From NCBI GenBank assembly GCA_030019255.1, contig JASEFK010000006.1, forward strand, positions 26,464-90,463: a stretch of 64,000 nucleotides of DNA, in the 5' to 3' direction. Below the pieces are notes generated by a model that saw nothing but the letters and a program-made list of their open reading frames with translations, was not told the origin of the DNA and ran no database searches. This DNA comes from Actinomycetota bacterium. GTDB taxonomy: Bacteria; Actinomycetota; Geothermincolia; Geothermincolales; RBG-13-55-18. The position numbers and the translations under genes were made by a program. Of the stretch, positions 4,146 to 19,840 are shown in pieces. Positions within the stretch are counted from its first letter, which is position 1, and every line of letters starts with the position of its first letter.

Positions 4146-4189
4146 GCACGGGAAGGAGACGGGGCGATCTCATGGTGCGGTGACCGGAA

Positions 4190-4429: not shown

Positions 4430-5096
4430 AAGACGTACCGGATTGGGATCCGGGCCGCCTTCCCCGGAAGCCCCCGAGGGAACGGGGGAACCTCAGCCGA
4501 TTCTCGTCATTCCTTACCCCTCGCTTACCCGCGACAGGGTGGTCGCGGCTCGAATCCGGTGGCGGGGTTCACCACTATCGCCAGATTTTATAACGCCCCC
4601 CGCCACGACCCGGACCTCGCCGCAGGTCGATCCTTACCCTGATACCCAAACATTCCGTTTAACCCGGACCCGCTTGGGGTATTTATTTATTGCATATTGT
4701 ACTTGGCTGTCACCTGAACGGGAGTGGGGGAAATCGCACCGGACTACGGCATCGAAAATACGACACGGGATTGCCCACCGAACGAGGATCCGCCACGGGG
4801 TTGGAACATTAAGGCAGCGAAAGGACAGGGGGTAGCGGCGGAAGGAACGAGGGAGAAGGTCGACGGCCACGTAATAAACAGGTGTCCACGGAAGCGCCGC
4901 GGTTCTGAGTGATGGGGCTCGACCCGAGCGGAGGCTACGGGTTTTAAAGAGGAAAGGTGAAATGCAGAATTTACCCGCGATTTATTCCGTTTTGTGTTGA
5001 ATACCTATATTATTAGGGCGATCGCTTCGGTCTGGGCGACAAATCTTTCACGTAGCGTGAAGAGGTTGCTCCGGAAAAGTAAAGGAGGGAGAAGAC
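4430..5096. other. 667-bp stretch with no recognisable gene
   Basis: All frames give short, compositionally poor peptides. The final 120 bp are AT-richer (4970-5040) and probably contain the promoter of the SCP2 gene at 5097. I see no structured RNA or repeat I can name. Confidence 0.5.
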
Positions 5097-5660
5097 ATGG
5101 CGCTGGCTTACGGCACCGAGGAGTGGGAAAAGGCGTACCAGGAGTTGCTGAAGGAAAGGCAGGCCACCCAGTCCAAGCCCTACATCATGGGCACGCCGGA
5201 GTGGGTGGCCCAGTACGAGGAACTGGTGAAAAACGACCAGGCATACAAGGAGGCGGCCAAGGACTGGGAGGGGTCAGTGGTCATCAAGATCCTGGCCAAG
5301 CCGGAGATCGGCCTGGAAAGCGACCTCTACCTGTTCATGGACCTCTGGCACGGCGACTGCCGGTCCATGCGCATCGTGCCCCCGGAGGTGGGCGAGGCCG
5401 GTGATTACGTAATCACCGGCGAGTATGATCGCTGGAAGTCCGTAATCGCCGGGGAACTGGACCCGGTGAAGGGCATGATGCAGGGGAAGCTGAAGCTCAA
5501 AGGGGACCTTCCCACCATCGTGCGGGCGGTGAAGGCAGCCAGCCGGCTGGTGGAACTGTCCGCGTCCACCCAACCCCGTTTCCCGGACGAGCTGAGCCCC
5601 GAGGAGACGGAGGAACTGCGCAAGCTGCTTCAGGAAGCCAGGGAGAAGCTGGGCGTCTGA
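5097..5660 (+). CDS. SCP2 sterol-carrier-domain protein with duplicated N-terminal helix motif
   Basis: The ATG at 5097 follows AAAGGAGGGAG at good spacing. The 187-residue product has an SCP2-like lipid-binding domain from about residue 55 to 160, including the stretch GKLKLKGDLPTIVRAVKAA typical of the last strand and helix. Before it lie two copies of a helical motif, GTEEWEKAYQELLKE (6-20) and GTPEWVAQYEELVKN (32-46), 26 residues apart. SCP2 domains bind fatty acyl-CoAs, sterols or other lipids in the cytosol. Its neighbours are an alcohol dehydrogenase, a second SCP2 protein and an AOR, so it may carry a lipid alcohol or aldehyde for them. That role is inferred. Confidence 0.75.
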   Translation: MALAYGTEEWEKAYQELLKERQATQSKPYIMGTPEWVAQYEELVKNDQAYKEAAKDWEGSVVIKILAKPEIGLESDLYLFMDLWHGDCRSMRIVPPEVGEAGDYVITGEYDRWKSVIAGELDPVKGMMQGKLKLKGDLPTIVRAVKAASRLVELSASTQPRFPDELSPEETEELRKLLQEAREKLGV

Positions 5661-5888
5661 AATCCGGTTCCACAGGATTCATGTCTCCGGTCACCCGGGA
5701 CCGGGGGCGCGGGGATGTAAAGCGGATGGAAAAAGCGGCACCTTTCCGCCCCGGCGGGAGGGTGGCCCGAATCGGACCCCCGGCGGGACCCGGGTGACGG
5801 CCGACACGCCGCCTGGGAGTCGACAGGCGTTCCGGCGGAAGAAAAGAACCGCGGTGCCAGGATAGGAAACCGGCAGGAGGTGTTGTAC

Positions 5889-7052
5889 ATGGCATACGGT
5901 CCCGACCTTTCCTTCATCTACAAGAACTACACGCGGATAGTCTTCGGCATCAACTCGGTGAGGGACGTGGGGGCGGAGGTGGATTACCTCAAGTGCTCCC
6001 GGGCCTTCATCGTCACCGACAAGGGCGTGGAGGCCGCCGGGCTGGTGGAAAAGGTACAGAAAGCCCTGGGAAATCGCTTCGTGGGCATCTACGACGAATG
6101 TCCGCAGGACTCCGGTTTCCACATCGCCAACCAGGCCGCGGAGATAGCCCGCGAGGCGGGTGCCGACTGCCTGGTGAGCGTGGGCGGGGGCAGCGTCATC
6201 GATACCGCCAAGGGAATGGCCATACTCCTCAAGGAGGGCGGCCGGCTTGAGGATTACTCCGGTTTCCAGTTGCTCACCCGGCCCCAGACGCCCCACATCG
6301 CCATTCCCACCACGGCGGGCACGGGAAGCGAGGTCACCTACGCCTTCGTGCTCAAGGATTACGAGAAGAACCAGAAGCTCCTCTACGGGGACGACTACAT
6401 CATTCCCAACACAGCCATCCTGGACCCGGTGATGACCCAGACCCTCCCCCCCATGCTCACCGCCACCACAGGGATGGACGCCCTGACCCACGCCATCGAG
6501 GCCATCCACGCCCTGCAGGCGGAACCCATCTCCGACACCATGGCCTTCGGGGCCATCCGGCTGATCATGGAATACCTGCCCCGCTGCGTGGAGAACGGCG
6601 ACGACCTGGTAGCCCGCGGCCAGCAGCAGATAGCCGCCACCATGGCCGGGGTGGCCTTCTCCAACGCCCAAGTGGGCCTGGTGCACGCCATGGCCCACAG
6701 CATAGGCGCCCTATGCGGCGTACCCCACGGTCTGGCCAACAGTATCCTCCTCCCCTACGTGATGAAGTACAACATGGACGAGTGCCCAGACCGTTACGCC
6801 TTGGTGGCCGAGGCCATGGGGGTCAAGGAGAAGGGCATGAGCGACGAGGAGGCGGCGGAGGCGGCCATCAACGCCGTCTGGGAATTGACCAGGCGCATGG
6901 GGGTCCCCCAGAAGCTGCGGGAGGTGGGGGTGACCGAGGATGTCCTCCCCCAAGCCGCGGACATGTCCCTGGGCGACGGTTCGCTGGTCTACAATCCCAA
7001 GATGATCTTCGAGGCGGATCAGGTCCTGGAGGTATACAAGGAAGCATTCTGA
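5889..7052 (+). CDS. Iron-containing (group III) alcohol dehydrogenase
   Basis: The 387-residue protein shows the family hallmarks: the NAD(P)-binding GGGSVIDTAKG, the PTTAGTGSEVT segment, and the metal ligands in the DAL-HAIEA region and H-x-MAHSIGALCGVPHGLAN. I chose the ATG at 5889, eight bases after GGAGG; an in-frame GTG at 5880 overlaps the ribosome site. The enzyme interconverts an alcohol and an aldehyde with NAD(P)H. Lying between two SCP2 genes and upstream of an AOR, it may oxidise a lipid alcohol to the aldehyde that AOR converts to the acid, or run in reverse. Substrate is not evident from sequence. Confidence 0.9.
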   Translation: MAYGPDLSFIYKNYTRIVFGINSVRDVGAEVDYLKCSRAFIVTDKGVEAAGLVEKVQKALGNRFVGIYDECPQDSGFHIANQAAEIAREAGADCLVSVGGGSVIDTAKGMAILLKEGGRLEDYSGFQLLTRPQTPHIAIPTTAGTGSEVTYAFVLKDYEKNQKLLYGDDYIIPNTAILDPVMTQTLPPMLTATTGMDALTHAIEAIHALQAEPISDTMAFGAIRLIMEYLPRCVENGDDLVARGQQQIAATMAGVAFSNAQVGLVHAMAHSIGALCGVPHGLANSILLPYVMKYNMDECPDRYALVAEAMGVKEKGMSDEEAAEAAINAVWELTRRMGVPQKLREVGVTEDVLPQAADMSLGDGSLVYNPKMIFEADQVLEVYKEAF

Positions 7053-7207
7053 GGCCGTGTGCCGGGACAACCTGTGCATGGGGACCTACGGGTCCTGAGG
7101 GGGTTGCACTTCCGTCCGAGGGTAGCCCGATCGCCCGGAACCGGGCTAGGGATGTGTCGGGGATCTGATGCTGGTTCGTACCGTTGTCGGCGTGGAAAGG
7201 AGGTAGC

Positions 7208-7624
7208 ATGGCCGAGATCAACCTGGGACCGGGAGCCGATGAGGTTCCGCTGGCAGGGATGCTCGCGGAGATGCTCAAGTCCAACCTGGAGAAACCGGAG
7301 AAGAAGCGGGATTTTGAGAAGCTGAAGGCCAAGGTGCTCATCCATGCCGTGGACGCGGAGGCCAAGATAACCATGGACTTCGACCGCGGCAGGCTGACCG
7401 TTTACGGGGGCGAGGCGGGCAAGCCGGACATCTCCATCGCCACCGATTCCACCACCCTGCTGGAGCTGGCCAATCTCAAGATCAAGTATGGGCTGCCCTG
7501 GTACTTCGACGAGACGGGCATGGGGGTGGTCAAGAAACTCCTCAAGGGAGATCTCAAGATCAAGGGTTTGATCACCAGGCTGGGGCCCCTTACCCGGCTC
7601 ACCAGGATCATGTCCCTGAACTGA
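7208..7624 (+). CDS. SCP2 sterol-carrier-domain protein
   Basis: The start at 7208 follows AAAGGAGGTAGC. The 138-residue protein has the SCP2 pattern through most of its length: a strand with FDRGRLTVYGGEA, then ISIATDSTTLLELA, and a C-terminal LKGDLKIKGLITRLGPLTRL resembling the lipid-tunnel-closing helix. It lacks the N-terminal helical duplication of the other SCP2 protein at 5097. It lies between alcohol dehydrogenase and AOR on the same strand and probably shares their transcript. It likely binds a hydrophobic acyl or sterol-like ligand. Confidence 0.8.
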   Translation: MAEINLGPGADEVPLAGMLAEMLKSNLEKPEKKRDFEKLKAKVLIHAVDAEAKITMDFDRGRLTVYGGEAGKPDISIATDSTTLLELANLKIKYGLPWYFDETGMGVVKKLLKGDLKIKGLITRLGPLTRLTRIMSLN

Positions 7625-7663
7625 ATGAAACCGGTGGCCGGCCCGAGAACCGTGACCATCCTT

Positions 7664-7699
7664 AAGATGAGCCATTCCCGCAAGGGAACGGCTCATCTT
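7664..7699 (+). promoter_or_regulatory. Strong intercistronic stem-loop upstream of AOR
   Basis: AAGATGAGCC at 7664-7673 pairs with GGCTCATCTT at 7690-7699. The inner TTCCC-GCAA-GGGAA adds five pairs and a GCAA tetraloop. No T-run follows, so a processing or stabilising hairpin between SCP2 and AOR is more likely than a simple terminator. Confidence 0.65.
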
Positions 7700-7763
7700 G
7701 AAGTGACCCATGGACGGAGTGCGGCCCGGCCGTTGTCTCGTGAGGCGGAAAGAGGTGATGCGC

Positions 7764-9626
7764 ATGACCTTCGGAAATATGGGTAAAGGCGTGGAGGTGG
7801 ACCTGAGCTCGAGAACGGTAACCGAGTTCGAGATCCCGGAGGAAATTTACCGGGACTACATAGGTGGTACCGGACTGGCGGCCAAGCTCCTCTACGACCG
7901 GGGGAACCTGGAAGCGGAGCCCCTGGACCCGGACAACCTGCTCATCTTCGCCACCGGTCCCCTCACCGGAATAGGTTTTTCGGGATCCAGCCGCCTCTCG
8001 GTGGGCTCCCGCTCCCCGCTCACCGGGATATGGGGTCAGGCCTCCTGCGGGGGAAACTTCGGCCCTGAGCTCAAGCGCTGCGGATACGACGCCCTGATCC
8101 TCAAGGGAAGGGCGGAGAGGCCGGTGTACCTCGTCCTGGGCGACGATTCCGTGGAGATAGCCTCCGCGGAGGACCTGTGGGGAAAGGATACCTACGAGAC
8201 CACGGACATCCTCAAGGAACGGCATGGAAAGCAGGCCAAGGTGCTGGCCGTGGGTCAGGCGGCGGAAAACCTCATCCCCTTCGCCAGCATCGTCAACGAT
8301 AAGGGCCACCACTTCGGGCGCGCCGGTATGGGCACGGTGATGGGGTCCAAGCGGGTCAAGGCCATCGTGGCCCAGGGGACCAAGAAGATGGAGTACAAGG
8401 ACCCGGAGAAGGTCAAGGCCATGCAGGAGGAATTCCGGGAGCTGGTCAAGGAGAGCGTCTTCTGCGGGGCGCTCTCCGCCTTCGGCACCGGGGCCAACAT
8501 GGAGGCCAAGATGATGGAGGGCGACGTTCCCACCCGCAACTGGGGACGCGGGATATGGGAGGAGGGGGCGGAGAAGCTATCCGGTATCGCCCTGGCGGAC
8601 AACTTCGTCGTGGACCACGGCAGCTGCCGCGGCTGCGCGGTGCGCTGCAAGCCGGTGGTGGAGGTCAAGGAGGGACCCTACGCCATGGGGCCGGGTCCGG
8701 GTCCGGAATACGAGACCCAGGCCTCCTTCGGGACCATGATCATGAACGACAACCTGGCCGCCCTGTGCAAGATAAACGAGTACTGCAACCGCGTGGGGAT
8801 GGACACCATCACCTGCGGGGCCACCATAGCCTGGGCCATGGACTGCTACGAGGCGGGAATCCTCAAGCCCGAGGACTACGACGGCATCAGGCTGGAATGG
8901 GGAGACGTGGACACGGTCATCGAACTCCTGCCCAGGATCGTCAACCGGGAGGGCAAGCTGGGCACCCTCCTGGCAAAGGGTTCCCGCAGGGCGGCGGAGG
9001 AGGTGGGCAATGGCGCCGACGCCTACCTCACCGACTCCAAGGGCCTGGAGGCCCCCATGCACGATCCCCGCTGCAACTGGGGCGACGGGCTGGCCTATGC
9101 CGTCTCCATCCGGGGGGCCTGCCACGTGTCCAACCTCACCTTCCTCCTGGAGTGGGGAGCCATCGAGTACCCGGAGATCGGGCTGGACAAGAACTACCAG
9201 CCCCAGTCCGCGGAGTACAAGGCCGAGGCGGTGGCCCTCACCGCCGACCTGGGTTGTATCATGAACTCCGCCTGCTGGTGCGAGTTCCCGGGGACCATCT
9301 ACTCGGTTACCCAGTGGGCGGAGCTCTTCGACGCCGTGGCCGGCTACGGGTGGGATTACCGCAAGATGATGGAGGCCGGGGCCCGGGTGTGGTTCCTGCA
9401 GCGCTGCCTGGGCCACATCTGGGGGGCCACGGGAGCCGACGACCGCATCGGGCAGAGGATCATGACCCCGGTGGAGGACGGGGGCATCGCCGGTTCCGTC
9501 CCGGACATGGATACCATGCTGCGGGAATTCTACGAGTATCGCGGCATGACCCCCGACGGGATGCCCACCCGGGAGACCCTGGAGAAGTACAGCCTGGGCT
9601 ACCTGGCCGACCGCCTGGGCCTGTGA
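7764..9626 (+). CDS. aor: Aldehyde:ferredoxin oxidoreductase (AOR family, tungsten/molybdenum bispterin)
   Basis: The 620-residue protein shows the AOR plan. The N-terminal pterin-binding domain has GGTGLAAKLLYDRG, WGQASCGGNFGPELKRCGYD and FGRAGMGTVMGSKRVKA. The [4Fe-4S] cysteines are in CRGCAVRC at 288-295, with a distant fourth cysteine expected near LGCIMNSACWCEF. I chose the ATG at 7764, eight bases after AAGAGG; the ATG at 7758 is too close. AORs oxidise aldehydes to carboxylic acids with ferredoxin in the cytosol, or reduce acids. Preceding alcohol dehydrogenase and SCP2 genes suggest a lipid-derived aldehyde. MobA and FdhD genes at 22-24 kb may serve its cofactor. Subfamily and substrate cannot be told by eye. 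Confidence 0.92.
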   Translation: MTFGNMGKGVEVDLSSRTVTEFEIPEEIYRDYIGGTGLAAKLLYDRGNLEAEPLDPDNLLIFATGPLTGIGFSGSSRLSVGSRSPLTGIWGQASCGGNFGPELKRCGYDALILKGRAERPVYLVLGDDSVEIASAEDLWGKDTYETTDILKERHGKQAKVLAVGQAAENLIPFASIVNDKGHHFGRAGMGTVMGSKRVKAIVAQGTKKMEYKDPEKVKAMQEEFRELVKESVFCGALSAFGTGANMEAKMMEGDVPTRNWGRGIWEEGAEKLSGIALADNFVVDHGSCRGCAVRCKPVVEVKEGPYAMGPGPGPEYETQASFGTMIMNDNLAALCKINEYCNRVGMDTITCGATIAWAMDCYEAGILKPEDYDGIRLEWGDVDTVIELLPRIVNREGKLGTLLAKGSRRAAEEVGNGADAYLTDSKGLEAPMHDPRCNWGDGLAYAVSIRGACHVSNLTFLLEWGAIEYPEIGLDKNYQPQSAEYKAEAVALTADLGCIMNSACWCEFPGTIYSVTQWAELFDAVAGYGWDYRKMMEAGARVWFLQRCLGHIWGATGADDRIGQRIMTPVEDGGIAGSVPDMDTMLREFYEYRGMTPDGMPTRETLEKYSLGYLADRLGL

Positions 9627-10372
9627 GGGGAAAGCGTGGTGATCCCACCTCCCCAGGCGAACCCGGTCCTTCATCCCGGAGTCCTTGCCGTCCTTTAGCC
9701 CGTTTAATAAGGATGCGGGGCTGGGACCAGATCGCGCAAGACGGTTCGTGGAGCGACCGTAAAGGCCGATGTACGATGTAAAGGCACGGAGGTGGCAATT
9801 CTTAAAAGGGGGCGGTGAAGAACCTGCCCCCGAACCCTTTTTCTCTCCTTCCGAAATGTACACCAAACAACGGGCAGGTACAAGGAAACCTCCACGCCGG
9901 GAGGGGCAACCTCCCCACTTATCCCGATGCGGATTAAAGCAAGCGGAAAAGGAAGTTTCTCTCCATCGAGAACCCAGCATAAGACGGTAGAGGAGGCGCA
10001 GGAGGGAGAGGTTGATTTCGCCCCCGGAAAAATTCCGGGTGACGCGAGGCGGCAAAAGCATTAAAATATTAACATTCGCTTAATATTATGGTCAGCGCGG
10101 ACGCTCCGCGGGCACGCTCGGAGGGACAGGATCCGCGGGCGAAAAAAGGGAAAGAAACCGGCACTTCGCTTACATGGACAGGGTGGGAGGGTCGGTGCCG
10201 CTCAAGAGCCGGTTAGCGGTCAAGGATGAGGTCAGGATCGCCATTGCTCGACTTCCGTTTTTTCACGACATCAAGCCGGGCACCAATCCAGTGTTCCTCG
10301 GAGGAGGTGATGGATGGCCGAACCAGAAACGCGCTTTAAGCCACAGCCGGGACGACCAAGGGAGGTGAGGTA
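9627..10372. other. 746-bp non-coding gap with two hairpin-forming sequences
   Basis: No frame looks coding. A hairpin CCCGGAA-AAA-TTCCGGG lies at 10023-10039, and a perfect AT-rich inverted repeat AATATTAA-N7-TTAATATT at 10065-10087. The latter could be an operator or the upstream promoter element of the DUF35/thiolase operon, whose first gene starts 285 bp later. Confidence 0.5.
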
Positions 10373-10837
10373 ATGTCCGACTGGAAGAAGGACGTGGAAG
10401 TCCTGATCCACCAGGGAAAGATAAGTGTCCCCTATTCGTGGACGGTGGGAAGCACCCTCAGCCGCTGGTACTGCGAGCTTCGGGACAACGGCAAGATATG
10501 GGCCAACCGTTGCCCCAGCTGCGGAACGGTCTTCGTGCCCCCCAAGGCCAAGTGCATCCACTGCTACCAGGAACCCCACGACTGGGTGGAGCTTCCGGGG
10601 ACCGGGACCGTGGAAACCTATACCATAGTCCGCTACGAGGAGCCCAAGCTCCACCCCCGCAAGGCCCCCTTCGTCTACGGCCTCATTAAGATGGACGGGG
10701 CCGACACCTGCCTTCTGCACTTCATCGACGAGATCGAGCCGGAGAAGGTCAAGGTGGGCATGCGCGTGGAGGCGGTGCTGGAGGAGGAGCGGGAGGGCAA
10801 CATCCTCGATATCCGACACTTCCGTCCCCTGGGCTGA
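10373..10837 (+). CDS. DUF35 zinc-ribbon/OB-fold protein, partner of thiolase-fold enzyme
   Basis: This 154-residue protein has a rubredoxin-like zinc ribbon with C47/C50 (CPSC) and C61/C64 (CIHC), followed by an OB-fold domain (GTVETYTIVRYEEPK... AVLEEEREG). This is the ChsH2 C-terminal or DUF35 layout. DUF35 proteins bind thiolase-superfamily partners, as in archaeal thiolase/HMG-CoA synthase complexes and the steroid side-chain aldolase Ltp2. The partner is most likely the gene starting 18 bp downstream. A second DUF35 gene closes the cluster. The ATG follows GGGAGGTGAGGTA. Confidence 0.88.
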   Translation: MSDWKKDVEVLIHQGKISVPYSWTVGSTLSRWYCELRDNGKIWANRCPSCGTVFVPPKAKCIHCYQEPHDWVELPGTGTVETYTIVRYEEPKLHPRKAPFVYGLIKMDGADTCLLHFIDEIEPEKVKVGMRVEAVLEEEREGNILDIRHFRPLG

Positions 10838-10855
10838 TGGAAGGTGGTGAAAGTC

Positions 10856-11998
10856 ATGGAAAAAGTTGCCATCATAGGAGTAGCCCAGAGCAAGTACGAG
10901 CAGAACAAGCCGGAGACCTTCGCCGAGATGGTCTACGACGTCACCCGGCGGGCCCTGGAGGACGCGGGCATCACCAAGGACGAGGTGGACAACGTGGTGT
11001 CGGTGTCCAGCGACTTCTGGGACGGGCGCACCATCTCCAGCATGGCCATCCAGGACAGCGCGTGCGCCTACGGGAAGGACATCACCACCGTGGAGGGCGA
11101 CGGGACCTTCGGATGCCTCTACGGCATGATGCGCATCCTCTCCGGGAGCTTCGGGGTGACCATCGTGGTGGCCCACCACAAGGGGACGGAGAGCAACATG
11201 AACGGCATCACCAACTGCGCCTTCGATCCCCTGGTGGAGAGGAAGCTGGGCATCGACGCCGTTTCCTCGGCGGCCCTGCAGGCCCGCCGCTACATGACCA
11301 AGTACGCCCTCAAGGAGGAGCAGTTCGCCCTGGTGTCGGTGAAGAACCACGGGAACGCCATGCGCAACCCGCTGGCCCTCTTCCCCATGGAGATTACCGT
11401 GGAGGACGTGATGAACTCCCGCAGGATCGCCGACCCCCTCAAGCTCCTGGATTGCTCCCCGGTGACCGACGGCGCGGCGGCCCTGGTGCTGGCCGCAGAG
11501 AGGCAGGCCAAGAAGCTCTCCACGCGGAAGAAGCGCGTGTGGCTGCTGGGCGTGGGACACTGCTCCGACGCCTACCGCCTGGGGGACCGCGACCTGGCGG
11601 ACACCCGGGCCCTCAAGGCGGCCGCCAAGCGCGCCTATGCCATGGCGGGCATCGTCGACCCCTTGAAGGAAATCGACGTGGCCGAGGTCTACGACGCCTT
11701 CTCCTACATGGAGCCCCTGTGGCTGGAGGGACTGGGGTTCTGCGAGGACGGCATGGGCTGCGAGTACCTGGAGCGCGGCTACTTCAACTTCGACGGGAAG
11801 CTCCCGGTCAACCCCTCCGGAGGACGGCTCTCCGCCAATCCCGTGCAGGTGGCCGGACTAGCGGAACTGGCGGAGTGCGTGCTGCAGATCCGCGGGGAGG
11901 CCGGCGAGCGACAGGTGGGCGAGGTGAACGTCGCCCTGGCCCACGGCATCAACGGCATGTGCGGCCAGTCCCACTGCGTTTGGATCCTGGGCAGATAG
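10856..11998 (+). CDS. Thiolase-fold protein of SCP-x/Ltp2 type, lacking the thiolase cysteine
   Basis: The 380-residue protein has the thiolase-superfamily fold signatures: MEKVAIIGVAQSKY at the start, VNPSGGRLSANP near the C-terminus and YDAFSYMEPLWLEGLGFC before it. By alignment to the SCP-x type motif C-x-x-G ahead of IxSG, the nucleophile position falls on E80 in VEGDGTFG, and the GHP histidine is replaced in SANP. A normal Claisen thiolase is therefore unlikely. Known relatives with such changes include the retro-aldolase Ltp2, which works with a DUF35 partner. Adjacent DUF35 genes fit a heteromeric complex. I chose the ATG at 10856, after GAAGGTGG, over a GTG at 10844. Confidence 0.82.
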   Translation: MEKVAIIGVAQSKYEQNKPETFAEMVYDVTRRALEDAGITKDEVDNVVSVSSDFWDGRTISSMAIQDSACAYGKDITTVEGDGTFGCLYGMMRILSGSFGVTIVVAHHKGTESNMNGITNCAFDPLVERKLGIDAVSSAALQARRYMTKYALKEEQFALVSVKNHGNAMRNPLALFPMEITVEDVMNSRRIADPLKLLDCSPVTDGAAALVLAAERQAKKLSTRKKRVWLLGVGHCSDAYRLGDRDLADTRALKAAAKRAYAMAGIVDPLKEIDVAEVYDAFSYMEPLWLEGLGFCEDGMGCEYLERGYFNFDGKLPVNPSGGRLSANPVQVAGLAELAECVLQIRGEAGERQVGEVNVALAHGINGMCGQSHCVWILGR

Positions 11999-12011
11999 GA
12001 GGTGACGCGCC

Positions 12012-13166
12012 ATGGGTAAAAGAGTCGGAATCATCGGAGTAGGACAGACCCACCACGCCGCCAAGCGCCTGGACGCCTCCGGGGTGGAGCTCATCGCCGA
12101 GGCCGTCACCCGCGCCCTGGACGATGCCGAGCTGACCATCAAGGATATCGACGCCATCGTCATCGGCAACATGGACCACTTCGAGAACATCAACTACGTG
12201 GACATGTGGGCCGTGGACGGGCTGGGAGCCTTCATGAAGCCGGTGTTCAAGGTAACCACCGGGGGGACCACGGGGACCACGGTGGGGGCTTGCGGGTACT
12301 ACCATTGCGCCAGCGGCCTCTTCGACGTGGTCATGGCCGTGGGCTGGGAGAAGAACTCGGAGTCGGACACCCAGGCGGCCATCGCCACCTGCTCCAACCC
12401 CACCCTGGAGCGTGACTTCTTCGCTGGGGCCATCGGTCCCTTGGCCACCGAGTACTCCATGTACATGAAGGCCTACGGGGCCACCGAGGAGGACGCGGCC
12501 ATCGTGGCGGCCAGGGACCGCAACAACGCCCTCAACAACCCCTACGCCCACTCCCGCCAGGCGGTGACCGTGGAGGACGTGCTCAAGTCCCCCATGCTCT
12601 CCTACCCCATCAAGTTCCTGGACATGTGCCCGCGCTCCGACGGAGCCTGCGCGGTTATCTTCGCCGTGGAGGAGAAGGCCAAGAAGCTCTGTCCCCGCCC
12701 GGCCTGGGTGCACGCCTCGGTGGTGCGCCACGACTACACCCACTTCGGGGACCTGGAGTGGACCTTCATGCCCACCCTGGAGCGGGCCTCGGCGGAGGCC
12801 TACAAGCTGGCCGGGATCACCAACCCCCTGAAGGAGTTCGACGTGGCCGAGCTCTACCTCCCGGCCTCCACCTGCGGGGTGAAGTGGATGGACTCCCTGT
12901 GGTTCTGCGACCACGGCGAAGCCCCCAAGCTGGTGCGCAAGGGCACCTTCCACATGGACGGGGAGCTCCCCATCAACCCCTCCGGGGGGGTCATCTCCAC
13001 CAACCCCATCGGGGCCACCGCCCTCATCCGCATCGGCGAGGCCGCCTGGCAGGTGATGGGCAAGGCCGGGGCGCGCCAGGTGGAAAACGTGAAGCTGGCC
13101 CTGGCCACCGGGTTCGGCGGCTGCAGCTGGTCGGACGTTATGATTCTGGGCGCCGAGCTCCCCTGA
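12012..13166 (+). CDS. Second thiolase-fold protein of SCP-x/Ltp2 type, lacking the thiolase cysteine
   Basis: The 384-residue protein begins MGKRVGIIGVGQTHH and keeps the fold signatures, including LPINPSGGVISTNPIGA and GFGGCSWSDVMILG. At the nucleophile position it reads G85-T-T-G instead of C-x-x-G, and the GHP histidine is again changed (STNP). It follows the first paralogue by 13 bp with its own GGAGGTGACGC ribosome site, and a DUF35 gene follows it by 17 bp. The set could form two thiolase-fold/DUF35 pairs or one hetero-oligomer. A retro-aldol or acyl-condensing role is inferred from family resemblance; substrate is unknown. Confidence 0.82.
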   Translation: MGKRVGIIGVGQTHHAAKRLDASGVELIAEAVTRALDDAELTIKDIDAIVIGNMDHFENINYVDMWAVDGLGAFMKPVFKVTTGGTTGTTVGACGYYHCASGLFDVVMAVGWEKNSESDTQAAIATCSNPTLERDFFAGAIGPLATEYSMYMKAYGATEEDAAIVAARDRNNALNNPYAHSRQAVTVEDVLKSPMLSYPIKFLDMCPRSDGACAVIFAVEEKAKKLCPRPAWVHASVVRHDYTHFGDLEWTFMPTLERASAEAYKLAGITNPLKEFDVAELYLPASTCGVKWMDSLWFCDHGEAPKLVRKGTFHMDGELPINPSGGVISTNPIGATALIRIGEAAWQVMGKAGARQVENVKLALATGFGGCSWSDVMILGAELP

Positions 13167-13183
13167 GGAAGGAGGTGAGAGGA

Positions 13184-13696
13184 ATGAAACCCATGGGACT
13201 CTACGAGGACAAGCGCAAGCGCACCCACACCCCGGAGGGTTACGAGCTGCTCACCCACGAGTCCGGGCACCTGGAGTACGACTTCAACTGGCACCTGGGA
13301 TACTACTGGAGCAAGTTCCTGGCCGGACTCAAGGAGAAGAAGTTCCTGGCCACCAAGTGCAGCCAGTGCGGCACGGTGTACATGCTTCCCCGCATGGTGT
13401 GCGGCCGGTGCTTCCTGGAGATGAACGACTGGGTGGAGGTGGGCCCGGAAGGAGTGCTGGAAGGCTTCACCATCGTGCGCTTCCCCTACATCGACCCCAA
13501 CACCGGCGGGATGATGAAGGTCCCCTTCACCTCCATCTGGGTCACCCTGGACGGGGCCAACACGCGCATGATGCACTACTGCAACGAGACCGACGAGAAG
13601 AACCTGGAGGTCGGAATGCGCATGCGCGCCGTGTGGTCCGAGGAGCGGACCGGGAGCATCCACGACGTGGCCTACTTCGAGGTCATCCGTGAGTAA
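13184..13696 (+). CDS. DUF35 zinc-ribbon/OB-fold protein (second copy)
   Basis: The 170-residue product has a zinc ribbon with C59/C62 (CSQC) and C73/C76 (CGRC), then an OB fold (GVLEGFTIVRFPYIDPN... MRMRAVWSEE). It has a 30-residue longer N-terminus than the DUF35 protein at 10373. The ATG at 13184 follows AAGGAGGTGAGAGG. It lies immediately after the second thiolase-fold gene and presumably binds it, giving a symmetric DUF35-thiolase-thiolase-DUF35 operon. Confidence 0.88.
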   Translation: MKPMGLYEDKRKRTHTPEGYELLTHESGHLEYDFNWHLGYYWSKFLAGLKEKKFLATKCSQCGTVYMLPRMVCGRCFLEMNDWVEVGPEGVLEGFTIVRFPYIDPNTGGMMKVPFTSIWVTLDGANTRMMHYCNETDEKNLEVGMRMRAVWSEERTGSIHDVAYFEVIRE

Positions 13697-13765
13697 GGGC
13701 GACATATTCCATAAAATGGAAACCGAATGTCGAGGCCCTTGACGCCGGAAGGCGAGGCGGTCATG

Positions 13766-13795
13766 GGGGCGGATAGAATATATCCGCCCCTTTAT
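13766..13795 (+). terminator. Rho-independent terminator of the DUF35/thiolase operon
   Basis: GGGGCGGATA (13766-13775) and TATCCGCCCC (13781-13790) form a perfect 10-bp stem with a five-base loop, followed by TTTAT. It lies 70 bp after the last gene of the operon. A weaker terminator may act on the other strand too. Confidence 0.85.
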
Positions 13796-14160
13796 CTTCC
13801 GAGTGAATCTCCTCCTGGACCTTAACCATCCAGGCGAAAGGCCGGGTCGGGCGCGCCCTTAGGGCGGGGCAGTCCCGGGTAGGCGTTAAAAGCCCTGGGA
13901 ACCACCCATCAATCAAGGTCGACGAAACACGTCCACCATCGAGGACTCCCGCCAGGGAAATCTTCCATGGACATGGCATGCAGTATGAACATGCCAAAGC
14001 ACTCCGGTCACCATCGGGGATTCCCCGCTCCTCCTTCCAACGGTTCTTCTCCCAGGAATGCCCTCGCCGCCGGCTGGACGCGACCGGATGAGAATTCCTT
14101 TTGCGGGCTTCCGCCCATGGCCGCCGTTCGTGGGTCGGCATACAGCTCCGCGGATGCCGA

Positions 14161-14874
14161 TCAACCCATGCCCCACCGCGAGGCGAGCCGGTCCGCGAGG
14201 CGACCTATCTTTTGGGACGCTCCGGGGCCGATAACCGCGCCGTGGCCCGGGTAGGCGTAGTCCAGGTTCAGTTCAGCCAGACGGCGCATGGATTCCAGGA
14301 TAGCCTGGCGGTCGTAGCTGAAGGAGAGGAAGGGCGGTCCGGGACGGTTGAAGAAGTTGGAAACCATGTCCCCGATGAAGGCCATCCTCCTTTCCCGGTT
14401 CAGGTAGGCCACGCCGCCCTCCGTGTGGCCGGGCAGCTCCAGCACCTCCAGTCCCAGCTCCTCCAGCATCTCGCCGTCCCGGAGGGGCAGGTCAACCTCG
14501 CAGGTATCGAAATGCTGGTACTTCTCCAGGACGGAGCGGGGAACGCGGCGCAGCAGGCGTCCCGCCAGGCTTATATCCCCGGGGCCGGCGGGCGGCCTCC
14601 TCCCCGCTATCACCTCCGCGTCCTTCGCCCCTGCCGCCACCCGGGCCCCGCTCTTCCGCCTCAGCTCGGCCAGGTTGCCCGTGTGGTCGTAATGATAGTG
14701 GGTGATGAGGATGTACCTGAGCTCCTCCGGCCTCAAGCCGCACTGCGAGAGGGCATCCAGCACTTTCCTCCTGCCCCCGGGTACGTTGGTGTCCACGAGA
14801 TAGGGCGGGTCGCCCCGCACCAGGTAACAGTTGGCCGTAGGCGTCCTGATGGTGATGATGTCCATACCTTTCAT
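14161..14874 (-). CDS. Metallo-beta-lactamase-fold hydrolase
   Basis: From the ATG at 14874, preceded by AAGGAGAGGGG, the product has 237 residues. It carries the MBL metal motif THYHYDH with H59, H61, D63 and H64, then LPGHTEGGV, FIGDMV and a late YPGHG, which supply the other metal ligands of a two-metal site. It resembles glyoxalase II and lactonase-type hydrolases that cleave thioesters or lactones. It is isolated between non-coding stretches, so its substrate is open. A longer in-frame start at 14931 is less likely, because the extra residues are of low complexity. Confidence 0.88.
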   Translation of the reverse strand: MKGMDIITIRTPTANCYLVRGDPPYLVDTNVPGGRRKVLDALSQCGLRPEELRYILITHYHYDHTGNLAELRRKSGARVAAGAKDAEVIAGRRPPAGPGDISLAGRLLRRVPRSVLEKYQHFDTCEVDLPLRDGEMLEELGLEVLELPGHTEGGVAYLNRERRMAFIGDMVSNFFNRPGPPFLSFSYDRQAILESMRRLAELNLDYAYPGHGAVIGPGASQKIGRLADRLASRWGMG

Positions 14875-15019
14875 CCCCTCTCCTTTCCTCTTTCCTGCAT
14901 CGGCTGCCGAGCCGTCGCTTTCTCGCCCCATGCCTTACGTGTTCACGACCTTCCCGCATCCACGTTCCGGTAAGGCATATTCTTAACCTTTCCTTTCCGT
15001 GTCCTTGCCCCGGCGTCGG

Positions 15020-16250
15020 ACATGATTCTATCCCCGGCACATGATTCTATCCCCGGCAAAGGAACGGCGAAACCTCCGCGTTCCGCCTAGGGCCCGCTTC
15101 CCCTTATCCGGCGTAGCGGAAGCTTTGGACACGCATGGGACCTGCTTTCACCCGGATCTCCGCGCACGTCGCGTAAGCCCGTTCCGCCTATCCAGTTCTC
15201 GCTGTTCTCCGTTATCCAAAAACACTCGGCTCCTTTCTCTCGGCATCGCCGGCTTAGCCATTTTCGACGATCTCGCTTTTCTCCGATCTAAAAACACTCG
15301 GCCACTACCCGTATGGCTTTCCCGGGCTCCACCAGGATCCCGTTCTCGATGTCCTTCGTTATCTGGAAAACATTATTAATACAAGGGGATTTCGTGCCGG
15401 AAACCGCCGCGGGCGATCCCGCGCAAGACCAACCGGATACTTTCCAGGAACTGCCATCCGAAGGGTGGATCGACGCGTTAGGGTATGTGGGGTAGGATGA
15501 GAACTTCTTATCATTTCCAGGAACTGCTGTCCGTTAAGTCGATCGACGCTCCTCTGCTATCCGAAGGGTGGATCGACGCTTCCGTGGATAGCGGGTGCCC
15601 AACCTGGCAACCTGGTTCGCGGTACGCGGACGCCGTCTGTCTCCTCTCGAAAGGAGGAATCACGGGAGGTTGATTCCACTCCCCGTACCCTTACTTGAAG
15701 GTGGAACGGCCTTTTCCTCGAGGATGACGGATGTCCGGGCCTTTGCAGGGGGGAGAGGGAAAGTGGCCCAACGCGGCCTCCTCTCGGGCGGTGGCGGGTT
15801 TCCTTTCTTGCTCAAGGCCGGGGTGATGCCCTCGACCGCCTCCCGGGGATATAATCTCCCTGACGGAGGGACGGAAAGCTCCCGCAAGCCCATCCGACCG
15901 TCACCGAGGCAGCGGCGCAAGCCCGTTGGGAAGTTCGGAATGAGAACCTGGTGGGCGAGACGTAGCGGGAAGCTCCGTGGAACTCGTTCGCACCTTCACC
16001 GAGGCAGCGACGCAAGCCCGTTGGGAAGTCCGGATGGAAGATATTGGTGAGAGGTACCAGGTTGGGAGCTCCATGGAACCCGGCCCCCACCGTCGCCATG
16101 GGAACGAAGCAATCCGAGAAAGACCAGATGGAAGATAATGGTGGGAGGGACATGGTGGCGTTTCCGTTGAGCTTTTCCGGCCGTTACATAAGAGTAAGGC
16201 GGTCCCAGCCGGAAGACCAAACGGAAGCTATTGGCGGCAGCAAACGGGAA
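15020..16250. repeat. Non-coding stretch built of successive degenerate direct repeats
   Basis: From 14932 to 16326 no frame looks coding. Several local direct repeats lie end to end. A 19-mer ACATGATTCTATCCCCGGC is doubled at 15020-15057. A 34-nt imperfect repeat ending AAAAACACTCGGC occurs at about 15197-15230 and 15269-15302. TTTCCAGGAACTG occurs at 15441 and 15514. A 21-mer running from ATCCGAAGG to ATCGACGC is at 15456-15476 and 15559-15579. A 39-nt unit starting TCACCGAGGCAGCG is at 15901-15939 and 15996-16034. It may be a decayed repeat locus or a relic of mobile DNA; no transposase is visible. Confidence 0.6.
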
Positions 16251-16326
16251 TTCCGCAGAGGGCCACGCGCTTCGACCGCGAAAGGGGAAACCGGTTTCAT
16301 AATCCGGATAGATAAAGGAGGGAGCC

Positions 16327-17553
16327 TTGGAGATAAGGCAGGTCTTCGTGCTCGGTGCCGGCTTCATGGGTAACGGTATCGCCCAGGTAGCCTCCTTCGC
16401 TGGCTACCCGGTGACCATGTGCGACGTGAGCGAGGAGCGCCTGGAGGCCGGGCTGCAGGCTATCAGGTCCTCGCTGGAAAAGTTCCTGGCCAAGGGGAAG
16501 ATAACCGAGGGACAGGCGGAGGCCACCCTGGCCGGCATCCACCTCACCACCCGCATGGAGGACGCCCGGGAAGCGGACCTGGTGGTGGAGGCGATTCCCG
16601 AGGACCTGGAGCTAAAGAAACACGCCTTCGCCGAGCTGGACCGCCTATGTCCTCCCCATGCCATCCTGGCCAGCAACACCTCGGCCATCCCCATCACCTC
16701 CCTGGCCTCGGCCACCTCCCGGCCGGAAAGGGTGGTGGGCCTGCATTTCTTCGGTCCCGTCCCCCTGCTGCGCCTGGTGGAGGTCATCCGCGGCCTCCTG
16801 ACCTCCGAGGAGACCATGCGTAACGCGGAGGAGTGGGCCCGCAGCCTGGGCAAGGAGACGGTGCTGGTACTTAAGGACCACGCCGGCTTCGTGGCCAACC
16901 GGGTGAACATCCCCACCAACATCGAGGCCGTGCGCATGATCGAGGAGGGCTTCGCCACCCCCGAGGAGATAGACCGCGCCACCGGGGGATACGAGGCCGG
17001 GGTGGGACCCATGCAGATCATCGACAACGCGGGGCTGGACGTGGGATATCGCGCCGCCCTGGCCATCTACGAGGACACCCGCGACCCCAGGTTCCTTCCC
17101 CCTCCCCTGCTTAAACGCATGGTGGAGGCGGGGCTTCTGGGGCGCAAGGCCGGGCGCGGGTTCTACGATTACTCCACCGGGAAACGGGTGAGTTACTTCC
17201 CCGCCGTCCGCAGCGGGGAATCGGAGGAGGAACGCAACCTCCGCATGCAAACCGTGCTCAACCACCTCCTCATTCCCGCCATCCTGGAGGCGGTGGCCGT
17301 GGTGGAGGCCGGCGTGGCCACGCCGGAGGACGTGGACCGGGCTTCCCGCCTGGGCTTCAACCTGCCCTTCGGGCAACTGGAGATGGCCGACACCATGGGG
17401 TTGGACACGGTCCTGGAGACCGCCCTCACCCTCCACCGGGAAACCGGGAACCCCAGGTTCTTCCCTCCTCCCCTCCTGCGGCGCATGGTGGCGGCGGGGA
17501 TGCTGGGGCGCAAGTCCGGGCGCGGCTTTCACTCCTACCAAACTGAACCTTAA
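16327..17553 (+). CDS. 3-hydroxyacyl-CoA dehydrogenase with duplicated C-terminal domain
   Basis: The TTG start at 16327 follows AAAGGAGGGAGCC. The Rossmann domain begins VFVLGAGFMGNGIAQVAS; SNTSAIPIT and VGLHFFGPVPLLRLVEVI are typical of the family. The first C-terminal domain, from about residue 190, has FVANRVNIP and ends LLGRKAGRGFYDY. A second copy follows, ending MLGRKSGRGFHSY, giving 408 residues instead of the usual 280-290 of the short bacterial enzymes. The enzyme oxidises 3-hydroxyacyl-CoA to 3-oxoacyl-CoA with NAD in beta-oxidation or butanoate metabolism. Two fused C-terminal domains mimic within one chain the dimer-like arrangement of longer FadB-type proteins. An acyl-CoA ligase follows. 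Confidence 0.9.
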   Translation: MEIRQVFVLGAGFMGNGIAQVASFAGYPVTMCDVSEERLEAGLQAIRSSLEKFLAKGKITEGQAEATLAGIHLTTRMEDAREADLVVEAIPEDLELKKHAFAELDRLCPPHAILASNTSAIPITSLASATSRPERVVGLHFFGPVPLLRLVEVIRGLLTSEETMRNAEEWARSLGKETVLVLKDHAGFVANRVNIPTNIEAVRMIEEGFATPEEIDRATGGYEAGVGPMQIIDNAGLDVGYRAALAIYEDTRDPRFLPPPLLKRMVEAGLLGRKAGRGFYDYSTGKRVSYFPAVRSGESEEERNLRMQTVLNHLLIPAILEAVAVVEAGVATPEDVDRASRLGFNLPFGQLEMADTMGLDTVLETALTLHRETGNPRFFPPPLLRRMVAAGMLGRKSGRGFHSYQTEP

Positions 17554-17705
17554 CCCCATTCTTGAACCAAAGCAGCCGGCGATTCGAATCCGAGCCGTAT
17601 ACCGGCTTGCCTGCATTGGTTTGACACCTTGCTCACCAGGCATATATCCTATTATTAAGTGCTGAATGGGGATGGCTGCGTTCCGCGAAAGTCAAGGCGA
17701 TGGTC

Positions 17706-17781
17706 TATAATTACACTTTTTCGAAGGAGGAACGGAGGGCTTGACCACGGGACTGAACCCGTCAAGCCCTTCTTCTTATTA
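17706..17781 (+). terminator. Leader with intrinsic terminator ahead of the acyl-CoA ligase (possible attenuator)
   Basis: A TATAAT-like -10 at 17706-17711 is followed by AGGGCTTGAC (17736-17745) pairing with GTCAAGCCCT (17761-17770); the inner ACGGG/CCCGT extends the stem. TTCTTCTTATT follows. The stem lies only about 36 bp before the ligase start at 17817. It may end the upstream transcript, or, if the -10 is real, act as an attenuator in the leader. No good -35 is visible. Confidence 0.6.
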
Positions 17782-17816
17782 AGGCACGGGCGCCGACAGA
17801 GGAGGGAGTGAGAAAC

Positions 17817-19475
17817 ATGGAAAAGGTCTGGCTCAAGCACTACGACTACTTCGTCCCCGAGAGCATCCGCTACCCACGTGTGCCCCTGTACCAGCTCTTG
17901 GAAATGACCTGCGTGAAATACGACGAGAACGTGGCCACTATCTTCTTCGATCAGAAGCTCACCTACGGCGAGCTGCGCGATCAGGTAAGACGCCTGGCCA
18001 CCGCTCTGCGAGGCATGGGGGTGCAGAAGGGAGACCGCGTGGCCATAATGCTCCCCAACTGTCCCCAGTTCATCATCTCCTACTACGGGGTCCTGGAGGC
18101 CGGGGCCACGGTGGTGAACATCAGTCCCCTGCACGTGGAGAGGGAGCTGGAGTATGAGTTCAACGACTCCGGGGCGGAGACCCTCATCTACCTGGACCTC
18201 TTCGACGCCCGCATCCAGGCGGTGAAGGACAAGAGCCCCCTCAAGCGCCTCATCGCCTCCAGCATCACCGACTACATGGAGACCCCGGCGCCACCCAACG
18301 TGGAAAAGGGCCCCGGGGTGTATTATCTGAAGGAGATAATCGCCGAGGCGGAGCCGGAGGTCCCCGAGGTGGAGATCGATCCCGAGGAGGACCTGGCCGC
18401 CCTGCAGTACACAGGAGGCACCACCGGCCTGCCCAAGGGGGTCATGCTCACTCACTTCAACCTGGTGGCCAACGCCACCCAATGCATGTTCTGGGCTAAG
18501 GAGTTCACCGAGCGGGGTAAGGACGTTTACCTAGACGTCATCCCCTTCTTCCACTCCTACGGGCAGACGGTGGGCATGAACACGGCCATCGCCAACGCAG
18601 CCACCATGATCCTCATCCCCCAATTCGAGATCAACATGATGCTCCAGGTCATCCAAAAGTACAAGCCCAACTTCTTCCCCGGGGTGCCCACTCTGTACGT
18701 GGCCATCCTCAACCACCCCGACGCCCTCTCCTACGGGGTGGACAAGATAAGGCTGTGCAACTCCGGCTCGGCCCCCATCCCCGTGGAGGTCATCCGCAAG
18801 TTCAGCCGCATCTCCGGGGGCATCTTCGCCGAGGGCTACGGGCTCTCTGAGGCCTCCCCGGTGACCCATTCCAACCCCGTCTTCGGCCTGAAGAAAGTGG
18901 GCTCCATCGGCATCCCCTTCCCGGACACGGAGGCCAAGATCGTGGACGTGGAAACCGGGAAGACGGAGCTTGGTGTGGGCGAGCCGGGGGAGCTCATCAT
19001 CCGGGGACCCCAGGTGATGAAGGGCTACTGGCAGAAACCGGAGGAGACCGCGGAGACGCTGCGCGACGGCTGGCTGTACACCGGGGACATCGCCACCATG
19101 GACGAGGACGGCTACTTCTACATCGTGGACCGCAAGAAGGACATGATCATCGCCGGCGGCTTCAATATCTACCCCCGCGAGGTGGACGAGGTCCTCTACG
19201 AGCACCCCAAGGTGCAGGAGGCGGTGACCGTGGGAGTCCCCGACGAGTACCGGGGGGAGACGGTCAAGGCCTTCATCGTGCTCAAGGAGGGGTGCGAGTG
19301 CACCGAGGAGGAGATCATCTCCTTCTGCCGGGAGCGCCTGGCCCCCTACAAGGTCCCCCGCCTGGTGGAGTTCCGCCCCGAGCTGCCCAAGACCATGGTG
19401 GGCAAGATTCTCCGCCGCGCCCTGCGCGAGGAGGAGATGGCCAAGCGCAAGGCCCAGGAGGAGAAGAAGGGCTGA
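17817..19475 (+). CDS. Long-chain acyl-CoA ligase (AMP-forming)
   Basis: The 552-residue protein has the ANL-superfamily signatures in order: P-loop YTGGTTGLPKGVMLTH, GYGLSEASPVTHSNP, YTGDIATMDEDGY, the hinge DRKKDMIIAGGFNIYPREVDE and a C-terminal catalytic lysine in KTMVGKILRR. It activates a fatty acid or related carboxylate with ATP and CoA in the cytosol. I chose the ATG at 17817, after GAGGAGGGAGTG, over a GTG at 17808. Together with the upstream 3-hydroxyacyl-CoA dehydrogenase it suggests fatty-acid beta-oxidation. The chain resembles FadD-type ligases, but the acyl length is not readable. Confidence 0.92.
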   Translation: MEKVWLKHYDYFVPESIRYPRVPLYQLLEMTCVKYDENVATIFFDQKLTYGELRDQVRRLATALRGMGVQKGDRVAIMLPNCPQFIISYYGVLEAGATVVNISPLHVERELEYEFNDSGAETLIYLDLFDARIQAVKDKSPLKRLIASSITDYMETPAPPNVEKGPGVYYLKEIIAEAEPEVPEVEIDPEEDLAALQYTGGTTGLPKGVMLTHFNLVANATQCMFWAKEFTERGKDVYLDVIPFFHSYGQTVGMNTAIANAATMILIPQFEINMMLQVIQKYKPNFFPGVPTLYVAILNHPDALSYGVDKIRLCNSGSAPIPVEVIRKFSRISGGIFAEGYGLSEASPVTHSNPVFGLKKVGSIGIPFPDTEAKIVDVETGKTELGVGEPGELIIRGPQVMKGYWQKPEETAETLRDGWLYTGDIATMDEDGYFYIVDRKKDMIIAGGFNIYPREVDEVLYEHPKVQEAVTVGVPDEYRGETVKAFIVLKEGCECTEEEIISFCRERLAPYKVPRLVEFRPELPKTMVGKILRRALREEEMAKRKAQEEKKG

Positions 19476-19524
19476 TTACCCCATCGTTCATAAACCGGAA
19501 GTACCCCTTGGGACTCGACCCTCA

Positions 19525-19552
19525 TGCCCGCCGCCACCGGCGGGCATTGTTC
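19525..19552 (+). terminator. Intrinsic terminator after the acyl-CoA ligase
   Basis: TGCCCGCCG (19525-19533) pairs with CGGCGGGCA (19538-19546) around a four-base loop, followed by TTGTTCTT. It lies 50 bp after the ligase stop and next to the stop codon of the convergent small gene at 19553. Confidence 0.8.
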
Positions 19553-19840
19553 TTAACCCTCGTTTTCGCCCTCTCCGCGGAGCACACGGCGCACGTAAAC
19601 CCGGAACATGCGCTCACCGCCCAGCAAGTAGCACTTCGCGCATCCCTCCACGTCCTCATCCCCCAGTTCCTCCAGCAGGCACTCGAAACCCATCTCCCCG
19701 TATTCGTCCAAAACCCTCTTCAGGTGTTCCCCGCCGGAGATAACCGCCTCCCTCCATCCTTCCTCGGGGGAAGGATCTGATCCGTCCAGAAGCCGGCAGT
19801 GAGGAGGAAAACTTATCCGCTCCGTATGTCGGCCTTCCAT
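19553..19840 (-). CDS. Small hypothetical protein with CxxC motif
   Basis: The 95-residue product (MEGRHTERISFPPHC...) has balanced composition, an acidic helical centre and a CAKC pair at about residues 73-76. The codon pattern favours G or C in third positions, as in its neighbours. I do not recognise a family. It is convergent with the acyl-CoA ligase and is likely a stand-alone gene, possibly metal binding. Low-moderate confidence that it is expressed. Confidence 0.5.
   Translation of the reverse strand: MEGRHTERISFPPHCRLLDGSDPSPEEGWREAVISGGEHLKRVLDEYGEMGFECLLEELGDEDVEGCAKCYLLGGERMFRVYVRRVLRGEGENEG

Follow-up and report, generated by a model that had tools for sequence, protein, structure and literature searches.

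A conserved DUF35-thiolase-thiolase-DUF35 module that lacks the thiolase cysteine, a candidate carbon-carbon lyase

What can a pair of adjacent thiolase-fold proteins do when neither carries the thiolase cysteine? The question is raised by four genes at positions 10373-13696 of a 64,000-nucleotide stretch of DNA from an uncultured, anaerobic Actinomycetota bacterium (assembly GCA_030019255.1, contig JASEFK010000006.1, positions 26,464 to 90,463 of the forward strand), called the window here; the genome comprises 43 contigs and 2.93 Mb. The four open reading frames lie on the same strand with intergenic gaps of 13-18 bases, in the order DUF35a-ThlA-ThlB-DUF35b, and their Pfam domains agree with the initial annotation, which had described an operon of two thiolase genes with the DUF35 genes outermost. 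The four genes probably encode one hetero-oligomeric, cysteine-independent carbon-carbon lyase, in which ThlB would be catalytic, ThlA would be its partner, and each would be accompanied by one DUF35 protein.

ThlA (10856..11998, + strand) has 380 residues when read from the ATG at 10856; an alternative GTG at 10844 is not preceded by a Shine-Dalgarno sequence. ThlB (12012..13166, + strand) has 384 residues, and both proteins match Pfam Thiolase_N and Thiolase_C_1. DUF35a (10373..10837, + strand, 154 residues) combines a zinc ribbon with an OB fold and is of the 'up/d2' type (OB_ChsH2_C, 63 bits; zf-ChsH2, 35 bits); its best solved relatives are the DUF35 protein ChsH2 (6ok1_B) and SSO2064 (3irb_A). 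DUF35b (13184..13696, + strand, 170 residues) is of the 'dn/d1' type (OB_ChsH2_C, 46 bits; zf-ChsH2, 34 bits). The CxxC-x10-CxxC pattern is kept in both, and ribosome sites of the AGGAGGTGA type precede ThlB and DUF35b.

The active sites were compared in an alignment of 80 ThlA and 94 ThlB sequences with seven solved relatives: BbsB (7pxp), the archaeal proteins 7yvy and 6esq, SCP2-thiolase (6hsj), Ltp2 (6ok1), Sal (9myr) and 4u4e. At the nucleophile position, Cys is present in all four true thiolases (7pxp, 7yvy, 6esq and 6hsj), and Gly is present in Ltp2, Sal and 4u4e. Every ThlB has Gly (94/94; Gly85 in the window, codon 12264..12266, + strand). ThlA has Gly in 67, Ser in 9 and Ala in 4 of its 80 sequences (Gly83 in the window, codon 11102..11104, + strand), and no Cys occurs among the 174 A and B relatives. 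The alignment does recover the Cys in four further Thiolase_C_1 proteins encoded by this genome, which served as a positive control. The initial claim that both proteins lack the catalytic cysteine is thereby upheld, as is the register given for ThlB (G85-T-T-G88). The site named for ThlA, E80-G-D-G, is three residues out of register; the equivalent of CxxG is G83-T-F-G86.

Two further columns distinguish the proteins from thiolases. The HDCF histidine of the true thiolases is Tyr in Ltp2, Sal and 4u4e, and it is Tyr in all 94 ThlB sequences (Tyr282, codon 12855..12857, + strand), where it is the equivalent of Ltp2 Tyr294 and Sal Tyr302. The window ThlA also has Tyr at this aldolase base site (Tyr279), within YDAF, together with Gly at the Cys site; across the ThlA set Tyr is found in 39/80, with Ser, His, Thr, Phe, Cys and others in the remaining 41. 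The histidine of the GHP motif is replaced by Asn in 94/94 ThlB sequences (Asn331, codon 13002..13004, + strand), and in ThlA the column holds Asn in 44 and His in 32 of 80, with Asn in the window protein. The initial reading of this segment as SANP or STNP is refined: the window proteins have (S)ANP/(S)TNP and lack one residue there, and therefore the His aligns to Asn.

The two subunits do not diverge in the same way. Three residues directly after the nucleophile motif are deleted in 80/80 ThlA and in 0/94 ThlB sequences. Mean identity is 49% within the ThlB set and 47% within the ThlA set, so that the contrast in residues is unlikely to be an effect of sampling. At the level of sequence, the subunits are asymmetric, with loss of the Tyr and the three-residue deletion in A and neither in B at similar divergence. 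Because Gly and Tyr are fixed in ThlB as they are in Ltp2 and Sal, ThlB is the likely catalytic subunit with an aldolase-like site, and retro-aldol cleavage is its likely chemistry; ThlA would be a degenerate, non-catalytic partner.

A cysteine moved into the active site from elsewhere would have offered another solution, and the alignment makes this improbable. Cys87 of ThlA, which adjoins the motif, is specific to the window, and its relatives have Ala or Val. Cys206 of ThlB is the sole invariant cysteine of that set and is common to Ltp2 and the true thiolases. Both candidates were dismissed.

The AlphaFold2 models of ThlB (pLDDT 85) and ThlA (pLDDT 86) both adopt the thiolase fold. Archaeal and SCP2-type thiolases match them best (Z of about 50-54), followed by Ltp2 and Sal (Z 44-45). 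Structural alignment to these three types of protein, which had been proposed as a check, supports the fold, but to judge from the models the fold alone cannot separate a thiolase from an aldolase. A loop at about residues 118-138 is predicted with low confidence in both models, from a shallow alignment and thus weakly; it may resemble the pocket loop that is flexible in Ltp2, Sal and BbsB (PMC12329534).

The module is widespread. Beyond the class, a scan over species genomes gave at least 577 confirmed relatives, and the counts of neighbourhoods given here use the best 80 loci. These span Actinomycetota, Myxococcota/Desulfobacterota, Pseudomonadota, Chloroflexota, Spirochaetota, Acidobacteriota, Bacillota, Hydrogenedentota, Euryarchaeota, Nitrososphaerota and Asgard archaea. 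The four-part set occurs in at least 10 phyla of bacteria and archaea. A lies directly upstream of B in 70/80 loci, with the layouts D-A-B-D in 20 and A-B-D-D in 23. The genome of the window itself holds two further modules, L043 (DUF35-A-B-DUF35, C6:115-119 kb) and L044 (thiolase-thiolase-DUF35-DUF35, C1:9.4-12.8 kb), the pair of L044 belonging to neither of the well-supported clades A and B. With three modules in one genome, the doubled arrangement is not the rarity that it had first been taken for. Across the class, ThlB orthologues share 82-97% identity, and almost all loci of sufficient length preserve the order of the four genes; the arrangement therefore goes beyond chance. The close relatives carry the name Actinomycetota, and one is recorded as Candidatus Geohydrothermomicrobium (Anoxymicrobiaceae); the window probably belongs to the class Geothermincolia.

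In a maximum-likelihood tree, a supported branch (99/96) divides A from B; Ltp2, Sal and 4u4e form a clade of their own (100/97) apart from both, and the Cys thiolases are likewise apart from A and B. Paired by locus, the A and B distances correlate with r = 0.89 over 60 loci, where the permutation maximum is 0.18. By the tree, A and B separated long ago as sister lineages and do not stem from a recent duplication.

In the DUF35 tree, the copies directly after ThlB form one clade of 36 rows (18 dn and 18 d1; support 95/99), with a bootstrap that is not fully settled and 3/39 such copies outside the clade. The clade holds in both gene orders, and the other copy, which sits either before A or in second place behind B, falls outside the clade; therefore the two layouts are mostly permutations of the same four components. 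Phylogenetically, the two DUF35s are distinct lineages and the module has four fixed components, which supports a ratio of one DUF35 per thiolase-fold subunit. From gene adjacency, DUF35a would bind ThlA and DUF35b would bind ThlB.

Two known systems share part of the ThlB site, Ltp2-ChsH2(DUF35) and Sal-Shy(DUF35) (6ok1, 9myr). Each combines the thiolase fold and a DUF35 partner with Gly at the nucleophile site and Tyr in place of the HDCF histidine. The YDxF/Y motif of their catalytic Tyr is present in 94/94 ThlB sequences, in the window ThlA and in 39/80 ThlA sequences overall. Sal uses Tyr302 as catalytic base and Cys304 as acid, with Gly replacing the thiolase Cys, and in Ltp2 the catalytic residues are Tyr294 and Tyr344; the role of Tyr302 and Tyr294 as base rests on mutagenesis (PMC12329534). 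Sal and its DUF35 partner form an alpha-beta-beta-alpha heterotetramer (PMC12329534). Unlike the window module, however, these enzymes use a homodimer of a single thiolase-fold protein with DUF35 fused to a hydratase, whereas ThlA and ThlB are a pair that lies outside their clade. Membership in the Ltp2/Sal family is ruled out by the tree and by the second catalytic residue. The parallel to Ltp2-DUF35 drawn in the initial annotation is therefore sound for the exchange of Cys to Gly and of His to Tyr in ThlB, but not for kinship.

The closest known kin of the module is, on the best reading of the sequences, the Ltp3/Ltp4 pair of Rhodococcus and mycobacteria rather than Ltp2. That pair likewise joins an A-type and a B-type thiolase-fold gene with two DUF35 domains; it differs in that the DUF35s of the window are separate genes and the host is an anaerobe. 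Among actinomycete pairs, PRK07937 proteins (515-561 bits, cut-off 419) fall in the A clade and PRK08313 proteins (672-711 bits, cut-off 514) in the B clade, and from their length, gene order and context these pairs probably are Ltp4/Ltp3. The window proteins stay under the NCBIfam cut-offs, with 181/419 bits for ThlA (PRK07937) and 372/514 bits for ThlB (PRK08313). One actinomycete pair (L076) has a tandem DUF35 fusion, another (L075) adjoins a steroid side-chain cluster of the ChsH1-ChsH2-Ltp2 type, and a Tsukamurella plasmid carries a tandem OB-fold (DUF35)/thiolase/thiolase set with genes for an enoyl-CoA hydratase and a ligase beside it. According to Wilbrink 2012, as cited in PMC10398937 and PMC4761994, ltp3 and ltp4 are each essential for C24-branched sterol side chains and their products are proposed aldol lyases. 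A literature search on an A/B heteromer in anaerobes returned nothing beyond the Sal/Shy papers.

Other assignments were considered and set aside. The benzoylsuccinyl-CoA thiolase BbsAB (7pxp) also pairs the thiolase fold with a DUF35-type subunit in anaerobes and gives weak matches, but it retains the Cys nucleophile and the GHP His; membership is ruled out by scores of 21 of 250 and 151/121 of 750 bits against the NCBIfam equivalog cut-offs and by the absent Cys. The archaeal furiosus thiolase (7yvy) is the top match in fold (Z 50-54) and in sequence, but it is Cys-dependent and homomeric and has no paired subunit without Cys. Placement among the Cys-dependent thiolases fails for the same residues: Thiolase_N and Thiolase_C_1 score above cut-off and the fold matches SCP2-type thiolases at Z 44-54, whereas the Cys nucleophile and the GHP His are missing. 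A steroid substrate is unsupported, as the genome contains no Ltp2 match above the family cut-off and no ChsH1-ChsH2 lies beside the module.

The genes around the module offer hints of what it may cleave. Among the 80 loci, neighbours include acyl-CoA dehydrogenases (30), crotonases (24), acyl-CoA ligases (20) and TetR regulators (11), with MaoC hydratases near 13-16, depending on the method, and 3-hydroxyacyl-CoA dehydrogenases near only 4. That hydratases are common and the dehydrogenase is rare is consistent with a lyase acting directly on what the hydratase produces. In the window, the module is preceded by genes for an Fe-type alcohol dehydrogenase (5889..7052, + strand; kept in 6 loci of the window's family), an SCP2-domain protein resembling sterol or lipid carriers (7208..7624, + strand; Pfam SCP2, 33 bits; 6 loci) and an aldehyde:ferredoxin oxidoreductase (AOR) of the tungsten family (7764..9626, + strand, start set by its ribosome site; AFOR_N 268 and AFOR_C 370 bits; 7 loci). 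It is followed, in the window's family, by a 3-hydroxyacyl-CoA dehydrogenase (16327..17553, + strand) and an acyl-CoA ligase (17817..19475, + strand). The AOR and the ligase beside the module suggest that the product is an aldehyde. The neighbourhood in 7 loci of one family leads to the hypothesis that AOR oxidizes this aldehyde and that the ligase reactivates the acid. In Pseudomonas, the aldehyde produced by Sal is oxidized by Sad and then passed to a CoA ligase (PMC8399759). The link to AOR is not a general rule, as outside the window's family it recurs in only two Lokiarchaeota loci, with AOR on the other strand.

Elsewhere the module keeps different company. A beta-keto acid cleavage enzyme (BKACE, PF05853) occurs in 23/80 loci, mostly in an unbroken same-strand run with ThlB, and the family is present in only 1/14 control genomes. 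BKACE would be accounted for if the module released a beta-keto acid, for example from a 3-hydroxy-3-alkylglutaryl-CoA. The order A-B-DUF35-DUF35-ECH-ECH-BKACE is conserved in L130, L134, L135, L136, L139 and L140, mostly with an acyl-CoA dehydrogenase in front, and these loci come from Pseudomonadota, Acidimicrobiia, Desulfarculaceae and Myxococcota. In other families of the window's class (L058, L059 and L060-L065), a PHP-domain gene (PF02811 plus PHP_C) stands directly before the module and replaces the AOR, SCP2 and alcohol dehydrogenase genes.

The proposed reaction would run as follows. The subunits would assemble in the order DUF35a-ThlA-ThlB-DUF35b, with ThlA completing a dimer with ThlB. 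A 3-hydroxyacyl-CoA made by an enoyl-CoA hydratase would bind in the DUF35-lined pocket of ThlB, where Tyr282 would remove the proton of the 3-hydroxyl group, such that the C2-C3 bond breaks in a retro-aldol reaction. Main-chain amides near Gly85 and Asn331 could hold the thioester enolate, and the products would be acetyl-CoA, or propionyl-CoA, and an aldehyde or ketone. In the window organism and its family, the adjacent AOR would convert the aldehyde to the acid, which the acyl-CoA ligase would reactivate. This route would be an anoxic, ferredoxin-linked counterpart of the Shy-Sal-Sad steps in the degradation of bile acids. What the sequences show is the four genes, their conservation, the exchanged residues and the two pairs of lineages. 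Support for retro-aldol chemistry is good but short of proof, and complex formation, the choice of catalytic subunit, the role of AOR and the class of substrate are all proposed features.

Several observations weigh against this proposal. The second catalytic residue of Ltp2 and Sal (Tyr344 or Cys304) is, by alignment, not conserved in ThlB: Pro284 occupies the column of Sal Cys304, and a Gly stands in the column aligned to Ltp2 Tyr344, where the alignment of Ltp2 is gapped and uncertain. ThlB thus keeps the base (Tyr282) but has no clear match for the acid, so that the retro-aldol role anticipated in the initial annotation is the best, though putative, reading. ThlA has partly conserved cysteines of its own (Cys373 in 56/80 and Cys378 in 48/80, P0002 numbering), and therefore ThlA may take part in catalysis. 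The 3-hydroxyacyl-CoA dehydrogenase about 2.6 kb downstream in the window's family is an enzyme that a thiolase route would use. Finally, the link to AOR does not extend beyond that family, and a gap of 746 bases separates AOR from DUF35a.

Some of these points feed competing explanations. The complex could be a Cys-less thiolase or decarboxylase whose substrates are 3-ketoacyl- or malonyl-type CoA esters and whose reaction forms no covalent intermediate, given that archaeal acetoacetyl-CoA thiolases are closest in overall fold and sequence, that the dehydrogenase lies nearby, and that TbSLP, which is without the thiolase cysteines, decarboxylates malonyl-CoA very slowly (PMC12329534). However, no ThlB retains the Cys or the GHP His, Tyr is fixed at the aldolase base site, the dehydrogenase is rare beside the module elsewhere, and Sal does not decarboxylate malonyl-CoA (PMC12329534), which leaves this explanation unlikely. 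It is also quite improbable that the lyase runs in reverse to build chains, with AOR reducing an acid to an aldehyde that the complex condenses with acetyl-CoA to a 3-hydroxyacyl-CoA. Although both AOR and the Fe-alcohol dehydrogenase can produce or consume aldehydes and a 3-hydroxyacyl-CoA dehydrogenase follows downstream, most relatives sit in a degradation context of acyl-CoA dehydrogenases, hydratases, ligases and TetR, and the literature assigns catabolic roles to all of the related proteins Ltp3/Ltp4, Ltp2 and Sal.

The remaining alternatives assign the subunits other roles. Catalysis by ThlA in place of ThlB, or by both as two half-sites on different substrates, would suit the Tyr (YDAF) and Gly of the window ThlA as well as its partly conserved cysteines, but the replacement of that Tyr in 41/80 ThlA sequences and the universal deletion after the motif make it just as improbable as reversal of the lyase. 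Least probable is that both thiolase-fold proteins are dead and form a scaffold that binds acyl-CoA, with the DUF35s tethering other enzymes, by comparison with HMG-CoA synthase and PhlA. Invariant active-site residues in a ThlB that is so strongly conserved across the class argue against a scaffold, as does an asymmetry between ThlA and ThlB that falls exactly at active-site positions, even though the thiolase residues are absent from both subunits and DUF35 proteins serve as scaffolds within the HMG-CoA-synthase and Phl complexes (PMC12329534).

New here are the asymmetry of the A/B pair, the division of the DUF35s into two lineages and the distribution of the module across anaerobes and Asgard archaea. 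If the module is a lyase of the proposed kind, annotations as 'acetyl-CoA acetyltransferase/thiolase' in many anaerobes and Asgard archaea hide a carbon-carbon lyase of other chemistry, and pathway reconstructions that count its genes as beta-oxidation thiolases are wrong. A single heteromer would also explain the joint need for ltp3 and ltp4, and the anoxic breakdown of branched or isoprenoid chains would gain a testable route. A broader and more speculative extension, possible though doubtful as a whole, is that the module stands in, generally and largely in anaerobes, for the last two steps of beta-oxidation. A hetero-oligomeric retro-aldolase, in which one subunit is catalytic and the other a pseudo-subunit, would then cut 3-hydroxyacyl-CoAs whose 3-carbon is branched or not to be oxidized. 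The handling of products would be specific to lineage: in the window's family AOR would turn aldehyde to acid and save the electrons as reduced ferredoxin, and in many others BKACE would serve.

Additional features flank the module in the window. Two overlapping promoter-like matches lie about 300 bases 5' of DUF35a (10039..10089, + strand), and a terminator-like hairpin of 11 pairs lies 3' of DUF35b (13765..13791, + strand), each a consensus match only. Rfam reports no RNA element at window 5000-20000, which includes the gap before DUF35a. Two small SCP2-domain proteins (5097-5660 and 7208-7624) flank the Fe-alcohol dehydrogenase, an arrangement conserved in the window's family. Farther upstream (2104-4429) are a CCG-domain (HdrB/GlpC-like) iron-sulfur protein and two 4Fe-4S proteins, in an order kept in some relatives.

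Many genomes of the class carry a second, paralogous DUF35-A-B-DUF35 operon (B 55-60% identical), accompanied by TetR, an acyl-CoA dehydrogenase and an enoyl-CoA hydratase. In L104, L105, L070, L071 and L078-L081, this operon is followed by a large flavoprotein of about 880 residues, with amine-oxidase-like, ferredoxin reductase-like and 2Fe-2S parts, and often by a nitronate-monooxygenase-like gene. The genome of the window also encodes a single Cys-less thiolase-fold protein together with a DUF35 gene (L042:4900-6084, C4:224.9 kb). This protein joins the Ltp2/Sal/4u4e clade by a long branch and is possibly a separate, homomeric aldolase.

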